Of a stretch of 64,000 nucleotides of DNA, positions 2,583-23,195 are shown piece by piece. This DNA comes from an uncultured Gammaproteobacteria bacterium (GTDB lineage Bacteria; Pseudomonadota; Gammaproteobacteria; DRJJ01), in assembly GCA_947258795.1 (NCBI GenBank), contig CAMYJU010000006.1, positions 86,333 to 150,332 on the forward strand, given 5' to 3'. Made by a program: the position numbers and the translations under genes. Below the pieces are notes generated by a model that was not told the DNA's origin, did not search any database, and saw only the letters and a list, made by a program, of their open reading frames with translations. How positions within the stretch are numbered: position 1 is the stretch's first letter; each line of letters opens with the position of its first letter.

Positions 2583-5500
2583 CTACTCGGTTTCAGTATA
2601 ACCAAGATCTTCCAATACAGAATATGAGGCAGGTAATACCAGCAATGTCAGGAAGGTTGAGGCCAGCATGCCGAATACCACACTGGCCACCAGTGGCACC
2701 AGCACCTGCGCCTGCAGACTGGTTTCCGACAACAAGGGCACCATACCGGCCACGGTAGTAATGGAGGTCAAAAAAATCGCACGAAAGCGATCTCGCACAG
2801 CCTGGCCGGCCGCCTCGTGTAATACCATGCCTTCCCGACAACGGCGTTTAACAAATTCCACCAGCAGGATGGAATCGTTCACCACGATACCGGCTAATGA
2901 TACAAAACCGATCATACTCGGCAAGGTCAGATCCAGACCCATGAGTATATGACCCCAGATCACCCCGATTAACGCCAGCGGGATATTGATCAATACCACC
3001 AGGGGTTCCCGGTAGTTGCGGAATTGCAGACTGAGTAACAGGTAGACGCCGGCAATGCCGGCCAGAAAACCACTCAATACAGACTGATTGGTTTCCCGTG
3101 AATTTTTGACTTCCCCTTCCAGGCTGAAACTGACTCCGGGATATTTTTTCAACAAACCGGGCAGAAACTGCTTACGTGTATCAGACAGGATCTCATTGGT
3201 ATTGGCGATGGCACTATCCACATCCCCGTTAACCGTTACCGTGCGCTGATGATTGATACGCACAATGCGGGAAAATTCCCGTTTCTCTTCAATTCTCGCG
3301 ATGGCGGCCAGCGGTATGGCTTGACCCTGCCGGTTGAATATCGGTAGTTCTTCCAGATCGGCCAGGGCACTACCGGGGGCGCTGTCCAGTTTGACATTAA
3401 TCTCGTAAGCTTCTCTACCGTGATAGACATCGGCCACCTTACTGCCATAGTAAGCCGCACGTAACTGTTGAGATAACTGCTGGGCATCCACCCCGGAGCT
3501 CAGCGCCCCGGGATACAGTTTGATACTGAACTGCGGTTTGCCCGGGCGCAGGTCATCGAGGATATTGGACACACCAGGATAACCATTGAGCCAGTTTTGC
3601 AACTCCCAGGATGCGCGTGACAATTGCGCCAGGTGCTTACCCTGTAAGCGAATAGCGATGGCCTGTCCGGCTGGACCAAAGGCCGGTTCCTTATACTGAA
3701 TGGAAATAGTATCGGGAATAGAGGGGGTTTGAGCCATCCACCTGCGGCGCAATTCATTTAGTGAATTGCGGCGGATCTCGGCATCCAGCAGATCCAGGCT
3801 AATGGTCGCCAGATGCGCGCCTTCCTCACCCGCATCAGTATTCTTGCTATAGGCCACCTGGATGTGCTTGACTAGCCTGCCCTCGTCTTCCGGCGGCAAT
3901 TGATCAATCGCCTGCTGCAGACTGGCCAGCAATGTTTTCACCACTTCCTCGGTACGATGGAACGGTGTACCCTGCGGCATAATGATACGTGCGTCCAGCA
4001 AGTTCCCTTCCAGATCCGGGAACGATTTAAATTTTAAAAATCCTGCCGGAATCAAACTGAAGGAAACGACAAACAAGGCCGTGGTAATACCCAGCACTGC
4101 ATAGCGATACTGGATAGCCACATCCCCGATACTACCAGCCTTATGCCGCAACCGTTCAAAGCGTTGATCAAAACGTTCACGCCAGCCAGCACGTTGCTTC
4201 GCATGATGCTTATCCAGGGAATGTTTCAGGTGATGAGGCAGGATAAGAAAGGCTTCGACCAGGCTAATGGTCAGCACTGATAACAAGACCATTGGCAAGA
4301 CCCCCATGATCTGACCCATGTCGCCTTTGAGAAAAAGGAGACTGCCAAACAGGATGGCAGAGGTGGCAAAGGAGGAAAACACCCCACGGGACACATGCCT
4401 GATGCCATCGATGGTGGCATGCAGGGTATCCTTGCCATTGCGATATTCGGTTTCGATGCTTTCCGAGATCACAATGGCATCGTCCATGAGTACCCCAATG
4501 GCCATCAGCAACGCTACCATGGAGATCATATTGATACTGATCCCCAGCACACTCATGACCACCAGCCCCCCGATGAAGGAAATCGGCAGGCCCAATGCCA
4601 CCCAGAAGGTGTAACGCCAGGTAAAAAACAGGAACAGGGACAGTGTTGCCAGTGCCAGCCCCTGCCAACCATTTCTCAGCAGCAGGTTTAATCGGTCATT
4701 CACAATCGAGGCACTGTCCTGAGTGATCACCAGCCGGGTGGTGCCCGGTAAACGCATATTCTCCTGTTCGACAAATTGTTTGACGGCATTATATACCGTC
4801 AGCGTGTCATCGCTGACATTCTTGCTTACCTGCAAAACGGCGGCTGGTCGGTCATTCAGTTCCGTGCGTAGTTCTTCGTCGGTGAAGTCATCAACGATGC
4901 GCGCGATCTCACCCAGTCGCAGTTGGGCGCCGCGCACATTATCCAGCACGATCAGGTCCGCCAATTCCTCCACCGTGCGACGCTGGTTTTCCACCCGTAT
5001 CTGATAACTGCGTTCATCCGCATCCAGCGTGCCCGCGGGCAGGTCGAGCGCCTGGCTCCGGATCAGGTTGGCAATATCCTGAAGACTGAGTTGATATTGT
5101 CGCAGCATGTCCGGTTTCACCAGCACACTGAGCTGATGGGTGGAAAATCCGGTTACCTTCACAATCGGTACATCGGCCAGGACCAGGAGTTCATCGCGGT
5201 AATACTCGGCCAGGGCTTTCAGCTCTGCCGGCTCCAGGTCGGCATTAATGGCCACACTGACCACGGGTTTAGTGCGACCCAGTTCTTCCACTGTCGGTTC
5301 TTCAGTGTTATCGGGGAATTCGGTAATACCATCTACCGCGCTGTTCACATCATCGAGAAAGGTTTGCAGGTTGCCCTGTTCCTGCATATCCAGGGTCAAG
5401 GTACCAACATTGTCACGGGCCTCGCAGCGCTGTTCATCCAGGAAACTGATACCATCGGTTGCATCTTCCAGGCGATTACAAATGGCTTCCTCCACCTCAT

Positions 5501-18102: not shown

Positions 18103-18558
18103 CTAGTCACTGGTTTCAATTGTTTGGCGAATGATATCGGCAGTATCTTTTTCCCAAGATGCAATCATGGCCTTTAGCTCTTGCGTCGTAGCATGAGTTC
18201 TGGGCAGCGCAAACGGCATGCCGACCAGCCGTATCATCTCACCATCTCTATAGATAGTAATAGAGAGGGGTAAAAAACTGGAAAATTCAGGGTAATTATC
18301 CAATACCGTTTTGACTTCACCCGGTTTGGCAAAAAAAACAATCCGGTATTCTGAGATATCGTAACCGGCTTTTTCCATACCCACATCAACCTGCTGCACT
18401 CTCGACACCTGATATCCTTTCGCTTGAATATTTGTTTGCAACTCAGACATTACTTCCGGGAAATCATTCCTGGTCTGTGCATTTTCGACACTATCACAAG
18501 TAGCGAGTGTAGCAGCTACAAACAGGTATATGAACAGGCGACAAAATGAAATACTCAT
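18103..18558 (-). CDS. DUF302 lipoprotein
   Basis: 151-residue predicted lipoprotein (lipobox LATC near residue 21) with a DUF302 domain over about residues 30-145. DUF302 is a small alpha/beta domain of unknown function, common in sulfur-oxidising bacteria. Its ATG overlaps the stop of the upstream DUF302 gene (ATGA), so the two are translationally coupled. Here the conserved cysteine-containing segment seen in the upstream paralogue is absent. Confidence 0.75.
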   Translation of the reverse strand: MSISFCRLFIYLFVAATLATCDSVENAQTRNDFPEVMSELQTNIQAKGYQVSRVQQVDVGMEKAGYDISEYRIVFFAKPGEVKTVLDNYPEFSSFLPLSITIYRDGEMIRLVGMPFALPRTHATTQELKAMIASWEKDTADIIRQTIETSD

Positions 18559-19022
18559 AAAACAGCTTCTTCCATGATATCCAGATAACTATTACCACTC
18601 GCGTCGCATACTGCGCCCACCCTAGTACCTGCCAGCTTTTTTACCGCATCAGGATTAAGCGCCGATATAATGACCTTGCCATGCTCTTCGCTAATCGTGA
18701 AACGGCACGGCAGCATGTAACCTATTTGCTGGTCCAGTTTCAGGGATTGATATGCCGCAGAAAAGTTACAGAAGTAAACGATATACTGTTGTTTGTCCCC
18801 GCCAGGTAAAAAACCTTCAGCAACTGCCTGTTCACGAATCATTCGAAAATTACGAGCCTTAACAGCATTTTTGATATTGTTGATTGTCTCGGCGTGAGAG
18901 TAAGGTGATTCCACTCTGATTAGCGCCGATAACTCGTTGTTACCTATTACCTGCCATCCAGTAATGATCGCGACCAGGATAAATATGATAGTAAGCATAA
19001 TAGTATTGTATGTATGCTTCAT
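18555..19022 (-). CDS. DUF302 membrane-anchored protein
   Basis: 155-residue protein with one N-terminal membrane anchor (residues about 8-27) and a DUF302 domain. Start chosen at MKHTYNTIML, which follows GGAGGG; a five-codon upstream extension lacks this. The segment IGYMLPCRFTISEEHGKV is typical of the family. It forms a two-gene operon with the downstream DUF302 lipoprotein by a 4-bp overlap. Role unknown; the anchor and paralogue suggest a periplasmic pair. Confidence 0.78.
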   Translation of the reverse strand: MKHTYNTIMLTIIFILVAIITGWQVIGNNELSALIRVESPYSHAETINNIKNAVKARNFRMIREQAVAEGFLPGGDKQQYIVYFCNFSAAYQSLKLDQQIGYMLPCRFTISEEHGKVIISALNPDAVKKLAGTRVGAVCDASGNSYLDIMEEAVL

Positions 19023-19503
19023 GAAAAATCCCTCCATAGAATATTGTTAAGCCAGGATCATCCATCCTGACCCTATAGGCATATATGGCATCCGACCATT
19101 TTGCCCATACAGCATAGACATTTATTCATATTATTTTGAAATTCTCGGTGAGATACATCACATTGCCACTGAACTGCCAGTGAGTCAGTTCACAATTTAT
19201 AAGTAAGCTCGATCATTGCATATTATAGTCAGAAACCAACAGAGAAGAATTTTATAGAAAGCCAAATTATATCTGGATAACACTACGTAGTTTGTTGGTT
19301 TGACATTAGTATAAAATATAATCATTAATTATATTTTCGACTCAATCAGGTGTGTAGTCCCGACACTGATGTGTCGCCATAGCCTTTGTCACCAACCCTT
19401 TTTATATTGCGCCCATGTTAATTCGATCAGTGTCAATTGGAGTTAGTGTAAAAAACCGCGCTAATTTTTTCTCTGATCCATTTATCTCTCATTTTTTCAA
19501 ATA
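19023..19503. other. 480-bp AT-rich intergenic region without a recognisable gene
   Basis: No coding frame with a ribosome-binding site was found. A TTGACA at 19300 and TATAAT at 19317 are only 11 bp apart and do not make a normal promoter. GATCAG (19425) and CTGATC (19473) flank a possible very degenerate palindrome of the window's repeat family. Confidence 0.4.
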
Positions 19504-20745: not shown

Positions 20746-21228
20746 ATGAAAGGACATGAAAAACAAGACCTTGCCGAACAGGCCTACCACACAGCGCTGC
20801 AATACGAATTGGATTATGGCTGCTGCCCGCAATGCGTGCTGTCCACCGTGCAGGAAACCGTTGGTTTCGTCGACGACATCACGATCAAGGCCAGCCACGG
20901 GCTCTCGGGTGGCGGTGGTCTCATGGGCCAGGGTGCGTGCGGCGCCCTCACCGGTGGCTTGATGGCCATCAGTGCCAAGTACGGCCGCGATCGTGACAAG
21001 TTGCATCGCGGGCGTGGCATGAGCAATTTCAAGAAGACCAGGGACCTGGTTGAACGCTTTCACACAGAGTTTGGTTGCACCACCTGCGAGGACCTGCAGA
21101 AACAGTTTACCGGCCGCACCTATGACATGTGGGATGCCGGTGAGTACAAGGCATTCGATACCGCCCGTGGTGATCAATGCGCACGCGCAACAGCCCTGGT
21201 CACCAAGTGGGTCGTGGAGATTTTATAG
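20746..21228 (+). CDS. C_GCAxxG_C_C family redox protein
   Basis: 160-residue cytosolic protein of the C_GCAxxG_C_C family (redox-active, possibly metal-binding proteins common in anaerobes and sulfur metabolisers). Cysteines occur in the family order: GCCPQC in the N-terminal helix, GQGACGALTGG in the glycine-rich loop, CTTC near residue 106 and QCARAT at the C-terminus. Function is not established; a role in electron transfer or metal storage has been suggested for the family. Ribosome-binding site GGAG lies in a hairpin. It ends 12 bp from a convergent gene. Confidence 0.85.
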   Translation: MKGHEKQDLAEQAYHTALQYELDYGCCPQCVLSTVQETVGFVDDITIKASHGLSGGGGLMGQGACGALTGGLMAISAKYGRDRDKLHRGRGMSNFKKTRDLVERFHTEFGCTTCEDLQKQFTGRTYDMWDAGEYKAFDTARGDQCARATALVTKWVVEIL

Positions 21229-21240
21229 GATTAATAATAG

Positions 21241-21666
21241 TCAAAGATTAGCGCATCCCGCTTTTGAATATAGGATACTGGCACCTTTTGCGATACGGGA
21301 GATTTCCCTGGGATCATCGCATGCGATATAACCCAGCTTATGTATCTTTTCCTGAAGATAATAGGGAACAAGATTGGCCAGCACCAGAATTCCAATAACC
21401 CAGCCTATCAATATGAAATTTGCATACTTATCTACGAATCTTGCTCCGCTCTCATCTCGTTTACCGATATACTGTATTACCCACATCACCCAAAAGATTG
21501 ATGCCAGCAACAAATAATAGGTACCCGTATCAAATGGTATTACCTCGTCTTTACGAACCATAGCTGCATTAACCTGGAAGTACTCATAAAATGCGAATAT
21601 AACTACAGGTATCGCAAGTAGATTAAATATTACGAATACTATTTGCGCAGACTTTTGGTCCATCAA
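21241..21666 (-). CDS. small four-helix membrane protein, immunity-like
   Basis: 141-residue integral membrane protein with about three to four helices (residues about 8-28, 47-66, 84-105) and a soluble C-terminal tail with two cysteines (GYIACDDPRE, KAGC). It starts inside the stop region of the preceding 262-residue gene (4-bp overlap), so translation is coupled. Resembles, from memory, DUF1240-type enterobacterial membrane proteins. Position right after a gene with a colicin-like hydrophobic hairpin suggests an immunity partner; this is inference. Confidence 0.6.
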   Translation of the reverse strand: MMDQKSAQIVFVIFNLLAIPVVIFAFYEYFQVNAAMVRKDEVIPFDTGTYYLLLASIFWVMWVIQYIGKRDESGARFVDKYANFILIGWVIGILVLANLVPYYLQEKIHKLGYIACDDPREISRIAKGASILYSKAGCANL

Positions 21667-22451
21667 TACCCGCCGTAGAATATACCAGGGCCGCCAAATA
21701 GCCTCATTAATGCACCGGGATTATTTTCGAGGTAATTATATGTACGGGTCGCCTCGTACTTGATTTCTCTCAATTTTACACCCAGGTCTTCATAGGCCTT
21801 TATCAGTGCTGCAGTCGCACCAAACTTTTTATCGATATGGTTCAATAACAATCCTGTGACTACACCTACTGCTATTGCTGCTATCAGGGGTGCCGCTGCA
21901 ATTGACCCGATAACTGCAGCTGAACCAACTGCCAGGCCAGCTGCGGCTGCAGCAATTGAGCTTAATCCAATCTTGACCAGATCACTGGTTACCGTTCCAA
22001 GAAATTCTGAAAGCGTAGTGGCATCATTGATGAAATGATCATATATTTCGATGCCAACTGATAAAACAACAGTAATAACAAACCCGCTTTTAACAGATTT
22101 AATAACACCTTTTGGGCCCACGGCCATACGCACTACTTTTGGGTTATCTGCCAAATAGCGTGTACCACGAAGAACCTTCCTGGCACCCGGATACCCTTTA
22201 AATATGATGTATTGCTTGCCAGCGTAGTTTTTAACTACAACTTTCTTAGGTTTTATACCAAATTCACGTATCAATTTTGCTGCATCGACCGAGTCTTTCA
22301 CAGGTGCAACCCAAGCGGACGCATCTTTTGTACGACTCTTCAGATTTCTTTCCTTTTGTATATCTTCTACCGATACTATCTGTAAGATCTGCTCATTCTT
22401 TTTCAGGTCTCCGACCAGTTTATCTTCCATATTCATAATGATTAGCTCCAT
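21663..22451 (-). CDS. putative membrane-active (YafU/colicin-hairpin-like) protein
   Basis: 262-residue protein. The N-terminal 130 residues are soluble and basic (many K, R, V). Residues about 165-210 form an Ala/Gly-rich hydrophobic hairpin, followed by a charged amphipathic segment (NHIDKKFGATAALIKAYEDLG) and a C-terminus ending FGGPGIFYGGY. This arrangement resembles the E. coli YafU protein and pore-forming domains of polymorphic toxins. No signal peptide, VgrG, Rhs, LXG or pre-toxin delivery domain is present, so it could also be a self-acting membrane protein. Start: ATG of MELIIM or the internal MNMEDK; no strong ribosome-binding site separates them. Confidence 0.6.
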   Translation of the reverse strand: MELIIMNMEDKLVGDLKKNEQILQIVSVEDIQKERNLKSRTKDASAWVAPVKDSVDAAKLIREFGIKPKKVVVKNYAGKQYIIFKGYPGARKVLRGTRYLADNPKVVRMAVGPKGVIKSVKSGFVITVVLSVGIEIYDHFINDATTLSEFLGTVTSDLVKIGLSSIAAAAAGLAVGSAAVIGSIAAAPLIAAIAVGVVTGLLLNHIDKKFGATAALIKAYEDLGVKLREIKYEATRTYNYLENNPGALMRLFGGPGIFYGGY

Positions 22452-22460
22452 TTATCATTA

Positions 22461-23195
22461 TTAGTGACACGATACACTTCTACCAGACTTCTTAAACCAC
22501 CAATCAGCCTTCTGGTGGTCTACTTCCCCACCCAGGCCGCGACATAAAAAATAGCCAGTCATAAACATCGAATATTGATGACCGTTATTCGCCGCTGTTT
22601 GATACCATCTATGCGCCTCATTAATATCTACAGGAATAAGCTTACCTGTATCATAAATACTTGCCAGGCGGTGTTGCGCATCAGCATCACCGGCATTGGC
22701 CTTCACCTTTATTTTTTCGATCTCCTTACTCCAGCTCGAATGTTGATCATTGTTAGCGACGCTTACCAGCTTGATATCATTAGAAACTACCCGATCTTTA
22801 GACTTACGAAACCAATCTGTTGACAGCAACAAATCTTTTTCTACTCCCTCACCTGCCTCATACATCCTGCTAATCTGAGCCATTGCGGGTTTATAATTCT
22901 GGTCTGCTGCACTTAGTAAATAAGAGATCGCCACAGATGCATCACGCCCAGCCCAGCTATCTGCGCTATATATGAGCCCCATATAATATTGGGATTCAGC
23001 ATTACCCTGTTTTGCAATAGGCAATAAATAGTTTACGGCTTCGGTGTATTTACCTGAGAAATAGGCTGATTTACCTGGGTCAAGACGATTTTTTATGGTC
23101 GCATCAGTATCTGCTGACCATACTACCTGGCAGCATAAAACTGATAACACAAAAGATGACAAGACTGTGTGTATAGAAATTTTAAACGAGTGCAT
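22461..23195 (-). CDS. secreted Sel1-repeat protein
   Basis: Roughly 244-residue periplasmic protein with Sel1/TPR-like repeats. Start placed at MHSFKISIHTV, the beginning of a signal peptide ending at VVWSAD; the in-frame extension to 23267 contains no better site. Sel1 repeats include AKQGNAESQYYMGLIY, YLLSAADQNYKPAMAQI, ANAGDADAQHRLASIYD and AANNGHQYSMFMTGYF. Such proteins are scaffolds for protein-protein contacts. It lies 10 bp upstream of the membrane-active protein gene on the same strand, so it may belong to that operon. Confidence 0.8.
   Translation of the reverse strand: MHSFKISIHTVLSSFVLSVLCCQVVWSADTDATIKNRLDPGKSAYFSGKYTEAVNYLLPIAKQGNAESQYYMGLIYSADSWAGRDASVAISYLLSAADQNYKPAMAQISRMYEAGEGVEKDLLLSTDWFRKSKDRVVSNDIKLVSVANNDQHSSWSKEIEKIKVKANAGDADAQHRLASIYDTGKLIPVDINEAHRWYQTAANNGHQYSMFMTGYFLCRGLGGEVDHQKADWWFKKSGRSVSCH

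Follow-up and report, generated by a model that had tools for sequence, protein, structure and literature searches.

Three genes on the minus strand

The window (the whole 64,000-nt stretch of DNA analyzed here) carries three closely spaced genes on its minus strand, in the order Sel1-repeat protein (22461-23195), toxin (21663-22436), and small membrane protein (21241-21663), with a gap of 24 bases between the first two and an overlap of a single base between the second and third. A sequence-only reading of this DNA had drawn attention to positions 21241-22451, which span the toxin and small-protein genes, the last two of the set; both are on the minus strand where it placed them. It described a 262-residue protein whose gene overlaps the next by 4 bp. 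Both ORFs are present, but their starts can be refined. The larger encodes 262 aa from an ATG at 22451, or 257 aa from an ATG at 22436; the latter is the likelier start because a GGAG lies just upstream of it and lengths of 255-262 aa are seen in the six closest relatives that can be read completely. The smaller encodes 141 aa from a TTG at 21666, with the 4-base overlap; an ATG start, its A shared with the end of the toxin stop codon, gives 140 aa and the 1-base overlap.

When the 1211 bases were shuffled 1000 times by mononucleotide, stop-free runs reached at most 204 codons; chance ORFs are excluded because the genes are conserved in other genomes. Promoter and terminator scans of the locus did no better than on shuffled sequence. 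The three genes have a G+C content of 40-43%, against 49% for the window, which is compatible with transfer but no proof of it. Nearby are a C_GCAxxG_C_C putative redox protein gene on the plus strand (20746-21228), convergent with the toxin unit, and two overlapping DUF302 genes in tandem on the minus strand (18103-19037).

The toxin, its relatives, and type VI secretion

A profile search of both proteins, as proposed in the sequence-only reading, placed the small protein as Tmi/DUF1240-like (see below) but found no match for the toxin in Pfam, NCBIfam, or PADLOC at E up to 1. Two PHROGs tape-measure matches to the toxin (E 0.061 and 0.3) were set aside as weak.

What the toxin does have is a conserved signature. 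An alignment of homologs was made from 36 of 40 candidate rows, omitting L030, L059, L061, and L063 as broken, partly unreadable, or cut off. D152, K155, and D202 of the window toxin are each found in 35 of the 36 sequences, the exceptions being L040 (for the first D) and L058 (for the K and the second D). The first two residues frame a DxxK motif (DLVK, residues 152-155; 21972-21983), the third (21831-21833) closes an Ala/Gly-rich hydrophobic stretch (residues 156-201; 21834-21971), and the published Tme domain is described by Fridman et al. (2020; PMC7046647) as an almost invariant DxxK followed by a transmembrane helix with a further Asp at its flank. A soluble basic N-terminus and a single hydrophobic hairpin near the C-terminus had been proposed for this protein. 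The basic character holds, with a net charge of +13 over the first 115 residues, but hydropathy analysis gives three hydrophobic segments, at about 111, 153, and 175, rather than one hairpin. The N-terminal region is part of the conserved toxin module, since G81, R86, and Y94 are identical in all 36 aligned sequences. A structure model built from 32 sequences is poor (mean pLDDT 59.4, pTM 0.39); with low confidence it has helices at 142-176 and 182-205. Because a Foldseek search with this model returned nothing below E 0.001, and a sequence search of solved structures gave no match (best E 0.2), no fold is assigned.

The relatives of the toxin place it more clearly. A tblastn search against plasmids found 42 records, all below 60% identity; the annotation of several names a PAAR-domain protein or a type VI secretion system (T6SS) PAAR protein. 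The Lelliottia homolog is a PAAR protein whose gene stands between tssA and tssF and precedes a small gene, and the Leisingera homolog directly follows tssH and is itself followed by a small gene. In another gammaproteobacterial genome (L069), the toxin module forms the C-terminal part of a 651-aa ORF with an N-terminal DUF2345 domain of the VgrG kind. As homologs are fused to PAAR or VgrG-type domains or otherwise linked to the T6SS, and the DxxK-helix-Asp signature is kept, we file the window toxin as a putative Tme-family membrane-disrupting effector, drawing also on the published motif description and on the immunity family discussed below.

Other relatives are visibly broken: L059, L061, and a copy on the 5.5-kb Aliivibrio fischeri plasmid pES213 are each split into two frames. 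In the plasmid copy (L028:793-2488), the Tme-like gene is followed by a weak Tmi-like match. Such cases, together with the absence of a recognized delivery domain from the window toxin, could indicate that the window gene is likewise a remnant, an effector severed from its delivery part and out of use like yafU in E. coli K-12. This seems very improbable: the toxin, small-protein, and Sel1 frames are all intact, the signature residues are retained, and the stand-alone form of 255-262 aa is conserved in six relatives at 51-66% identity.

The sequence-only reading had found no secretion domain or Rhs/VgrG gene nearby, and this is borne out: no delivery domain is recognized in the toxin by Pfam or NCBIfam, the gene upstream is the Sel1 gene rather than a T6SS gene, and the scanned immediate neighbors of the unit include no T6SS genes. 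About 70% of the Tme family has an N-terminal T6SS delivery domain or a T6SS gene upstream, but neither is described as obligatory (PMC7046647). The further claim, that the pair lies outside any known delivery system, is not supported, because the host genome has both a T6SS and a second Tme gene, and relatives lie within T6SS clusters or carry a PAAR or VgrG-type domain as a fusion. The window is on host contig C6; contig C1 carries genes for TssA, B, E, F, G, H, J, K, and M, TagH, TssC (twice), and TssL/DotU, as well as Hcp and a VgrG-type protein (Phage_GPD), and a PAAR protein is encoded on C31. The effector is therefore unlinked to the T6SS. The second Tme gene is on host contig C12 (L005:208-2253), with two Tmi-like genes behind it, one of them over the DUF1240 cut-off.

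The association extends beyond this host. TssC is found in 27 of 30 genomes holding toxin homologs, the genomes of L051, L055, and L061 being those without a match; these are the genomes of 32 of the 35 homolog loci (the other three are from the same genomes), less that of L049 and with one genome common to L043 and L053. Among 369 genomes drawn from the whole class, TssC occurs in 70, and all six of the draw genomes with a Tme match fall among these 70 (hypergeometric probability 4e-5, or 1e-3 without the two genomes of the window's own genus). The toxin looks like an orphan T6SS cargo effector.

Two other readings of the toxin bear on this. It might belong to a toxin/antitoxin-like or abortive-infection unit acting in its own cell, as has been suspected for YafU-type membrane proteins; the toxin does resemble YafU, and it is a stand-alone protein with neither a delivery domain nor a neighboring T6SS gene. 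We consider this very unlikely, given the co-occurrence of the family with the T6SS, the relatives fused to PAAR or VgrG-type domains, the failure of either the toxin or the small protein to match PADLOC, and the lack of any match among 50,697 phage records; in addition, Tme1 is reported not to be toxic in the cytoplasm (PMC7046647). Alternatively, the toxin could be released in the manner of a bacteriocin instead of injected, as the broken Tme gene and Tmi-like gene on the small Aliivibrio plasmid might suggest, plasmids being the usual home of bacteriocins. The window toxin has no receptor-binding or export part, however, and its family is associated with the T6SS, so that release is extremely improbable.

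The small membrane protein and the Sel1-repeat protein

The gene behind the toxin (21241-21663) had been read as encoding a small multi-helix membrane protein of the kind that confers immunity. At the threshold used, the window copy has two clear hydrophobic segments; it is in most of its relatives that there are three. Of 35 homolog loci from named genomes, 26 have a downstream ORF with three such segments, L031 and L032 have one with two, and L035 one with a single segment. A different, exported-looking protein is encoded downstream of the toxin in L040 and L059, and no membrane ORF lies behind the toxin in L034; the remaining loci are partly unreadable (L030), broken (L061), or cut off (L063). 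The sequence-only reading had made the pairing depend on adjacency in other genomes, and the two genes are adjacent in nearly all loci; this conservation as neighbors supports its proposal of a membrane-acting toxin with a membrane immunity protein.

A Tmi profile was made from 29 of the proteins downstream of the 35 loci and four others. It matches the downstream proteins of 12 of 14 further, independent homolog loci from an order-wide draw, none used in building it (17 matches minus three repeats of L031 and L038); L083 and L087 have no match. The conserved residues are a Y..C and a second C near the C-terminus. Taken alone, the window protein has no significant Pfam match and does not match the DUF1240 model; with an E limit of 0.1, that model picks up 13 of 31 downstream proteins, the window protein not among them. 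A profile of its clade, however, matches a profile of 21 Tmi/DUF1240-like downstream proteins with a probability of 98.5 (E 2.9e-15). One of these 21, from host contig C12, exceeds the DUF1240 cut-off; the Vibrio coralliilyticus neighbor is annotated as DUF1240, yet scores 20.6 bits against a cut-off of 24.3. The window protein is thus a predicted Tmi/DUF1240-like immunity protein by profile-profile comparison only. In the published account, the Tmi immunity family consists of DUF1240-like proteins whose genes directly follow Tme, most members having three to six transmembrane helices (PMC7046647); in the literature search, mentions of DUF1240 were confined to a single paper.

Some loci have further genes in the same position. 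Behind one Tme gene, five Tmi-like ORFs lie in a row at an even spacing of 583 bases (L049:1508-4292), and in Neptunomonas the toxin and its Tmi are succeeded by a fragment of a toxin C-terminus and another Tmi-like gene (L031:9350-9844). The exported-looking downstream proteins of L040 (143 aa) and L059 (137 aa) are related to one another (30% identity, E 2e-18) and go undetected by both the Tmi and the Sel1 profiles; they are possibly a further type of immunity protein.

The Sel1-repeat gene upstream of the toxin encodes 244 aa (22461-23195; Pfam Sel1, E 3.4e-24). A PADLOC match of this protein to PtuA (E 8.6e-10, residues 178-233) was read as shared repeats and rejected, because its own Pfam match is far stronger and it has no ATPase domain. 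The sequence-only reading suspected that this gene belonged to the same unit, and comparison with other genomes agrees. Among the nine available loci of the window clade, defined as those with a toxin at least 50% identical to that of the window (for L025, over only 51 residues), a Sel1 homolog lies directly upstream of the toxin in eight: the window, L029, L031, L032, L033, L034, L035, and L025, a second locus in genome G052 whose contig ends inside the toxin gene. The exception, L030, is in the same genome as L025. Beside the other 28 of the 35 homolog loci there is no Sel1 gene, although four of these (L043, L049, L050, and L051) have less than 700 bases of upstream sequence. When nine genomes were searched with a Sel1 profile, the eight toxin-linked copies scored 208 to 337 bits and the best unlinked protein 99; the profile had been built with seven of the eight included, but without the eighth (208 bits). 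The toxin-linked copies, scoring so far above the rest, therefore form a distinct Sel1 lineage tied to the toxin.

Gene trees of Sel1, Tmi, and the toxin agree (Spearman 0.74 to 0.86, reached by 5 to 12 of 720 permutations), which shows inheritance as a unit but cannot tell an immunity role from an accessory one. In mean pairwise identity, the Sel1 proteins (30.1%, 21 pairs) are close to Tmi (31.8%, 15 pairs from six loci) and well below the toxin (55.3%, 21 pairs). All seven aligned Sel1 copies begin with a basic start and a hydrophobic segment resembling an export signal, judged by hydropathy only, and two Cys are invariant in the seven. A Sel1 protein of the high-scoring kind is encoded next to the toxin in all eight genomes with a clade toxin, and Tmi is found in seven of them. 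The eighth is Marinobacterium stanieri, which has an intact toxin with the signature and a Sel1 gene upstream, but on the toxin strand no ORF of 50 aa between the toxin and a valyl-tRNA synthetase gene downstream. A search of this genome with the clade Tmi profile gave nothing at E up to 0.01, whereas the same search matched the other seven genomes and reached even the divergent copies on host contig C12. A Tmi that has diverged beyond the reach of the profile may be present in M. stanieri.

The chances are about even that the Sel1 protein is a second, periplasmic immunity protein, a role favored because of its export-like start, its Tmi-like divergence, the M. stanieri case, and the precedents for Sel1-repeat immunity proteins: Sel1E for Klebsiella VgrG4 (PMC7108748), and three Tli5b proteins for Pseudomonas PldB (cited in PMC13133936 and PMC9022076). 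Against it, immunity genes are described as usually sitting downstream of the toxin (PMC3482391), and the window Sel1 gene is upstream. The main rival gives Sel1 an accessory role instead of one in immunity: the toxin would depend on it, for instance, to be stable, to be loaded, or to cross the envelope of the producing cell. Sel1 is indeed more constant in the clade than Tmi (eight of eight genomes against seven), Sel1 repeats generally mediate protein contacts, and a periplasmic T6SS accessory, TslA/AsaA, is reported to bind TssM in Acinetobacter (PMC10564176). The export-signal-like N-terminus nevertheless speaks against a cytoplasmic loading factor, the divergence of Sel1 matches that of the immunity protein, and 28 of 35 Tme loci have no adjoining Sel1 gene, Tme1 needing none as far as its published description goes (PMC7046647); on balance an accessory role seems doubtful, though a serious contender. 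The immunity reading can be extended, more tentatively and with slightly less than an even chance of being right: the clade Tme would have double immunity, with an exported Sel1 capturing the toxin in the periplasm and Tmi guarding the inner membrane, and Sel1 could fully replace Tmi, as in M. stanieri. If so, a single toxin domain would be countered by two unrelated kinds of immunity, each in its own compartment.

Proposed working and known systems

Taken as a whole, the locus is very probably a T6SS Tme effector/Tmi immunity pair, belonging to a clade in which a Sel1-repeat gene is the third member, and killing of rival bacteria is the most likely purpose of the three-gene set. Homology, motif, gene order, and the presence of a T6SS are directly observed; from published work on Tme1 and Tme2, we infer that the window toxin acts in the periplasm and disrupts membranes. 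After synthesis in the cytoplasm, the toxin would presumably be taken up as cargo by the unlinked T6SS, which would inject it into a neighboring bacterium's periplasm. There the DxxK region and hydrophobic helices would enter the inner membrane, permeabilize it, and collapse the potential. In sister cells, Tmi in the inner membrane would block insertion or plug the lesion, allowing survival, and Sel1, if exported to the periplasm, may bind the toxin while it is still on its way to the membrane, providing a second layer of immunity.

Compared with the described Tme/Tmi pairs (PMC7046647), the locus shares the DxxK, hydrophobic helices, and Asp of the toxin, the DUF1240-like multi-helix immunity protein downstream, and a T6SS in the genome. 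It differs in that the toxin is a stand-alone 257-aa module without an N-terminal extension, that its clade has a Sel1-repeat gene directly upstream, and that one member is without a detectable Tmi. The literature search found no Sel1 gene beside Tme/Tmi (supplementary files were outside its scope). The pair extends a known T6SS effector and immunity family by an orphan member, and the conserved Sel1-Tme-Tmi arrangement is, as far as such searches go, an undescribed variant. The added value lies in this combination of three genes, which lends itself directly to asking whether a single membrane-disrupting toxin can be neutralized by two unrelated proteins located in separate compartments. M. 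stanieri, where toxin and Sel1 but no Tmi were found, serves as a natural knock-out, and in L040 and L059 a different small, exported-looking protein takes the place of Tmi.

With Sel1E (VgrG4) and Tli5b (PldB), the locus shares a Sel1-repeat protein encoded beside a T6SS effector. Sel1E is reported to guard against a VgrG4 domain acting through reactive oxygen, and Tli5b against a phospholipase; the window Sel1 gene, by contrast, lies upstream of its neighbor, a putative Tme disrupter that already has a membrane immunity protein. Effectors with an N-terminal RIX domain, as in Tme1 (PMC10435454), are likewise described as orphan Tme effectors away from T6SS clusters, but RIX occupies an N-terminal extension for which the window protein is too short.

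The likeness to E. coli K-12 YafU noted in the sequence-only reading is real: with 35.7 bits, YafU aligns to the C-terminal half of the Tme profile, across the DxxK-helix-Asp region with its motif and closing Asp. In contrast to the window toxin, it is a 112-aa fragment annotated as a pseudogene. The next gene downstream of yafU (L073:4747-5085 in strain MG1655) is ykfM (4258-4737), whose product has a weak match to the Tmi profile (11.2 bits, bias 10.5). The literature search found no mention of yafU together with type VI secretion. The two genes are probably the remains of a Tme/Tmi pair, which would account for the E. coli K-12 yafU as a piece of a Tme effector gene.
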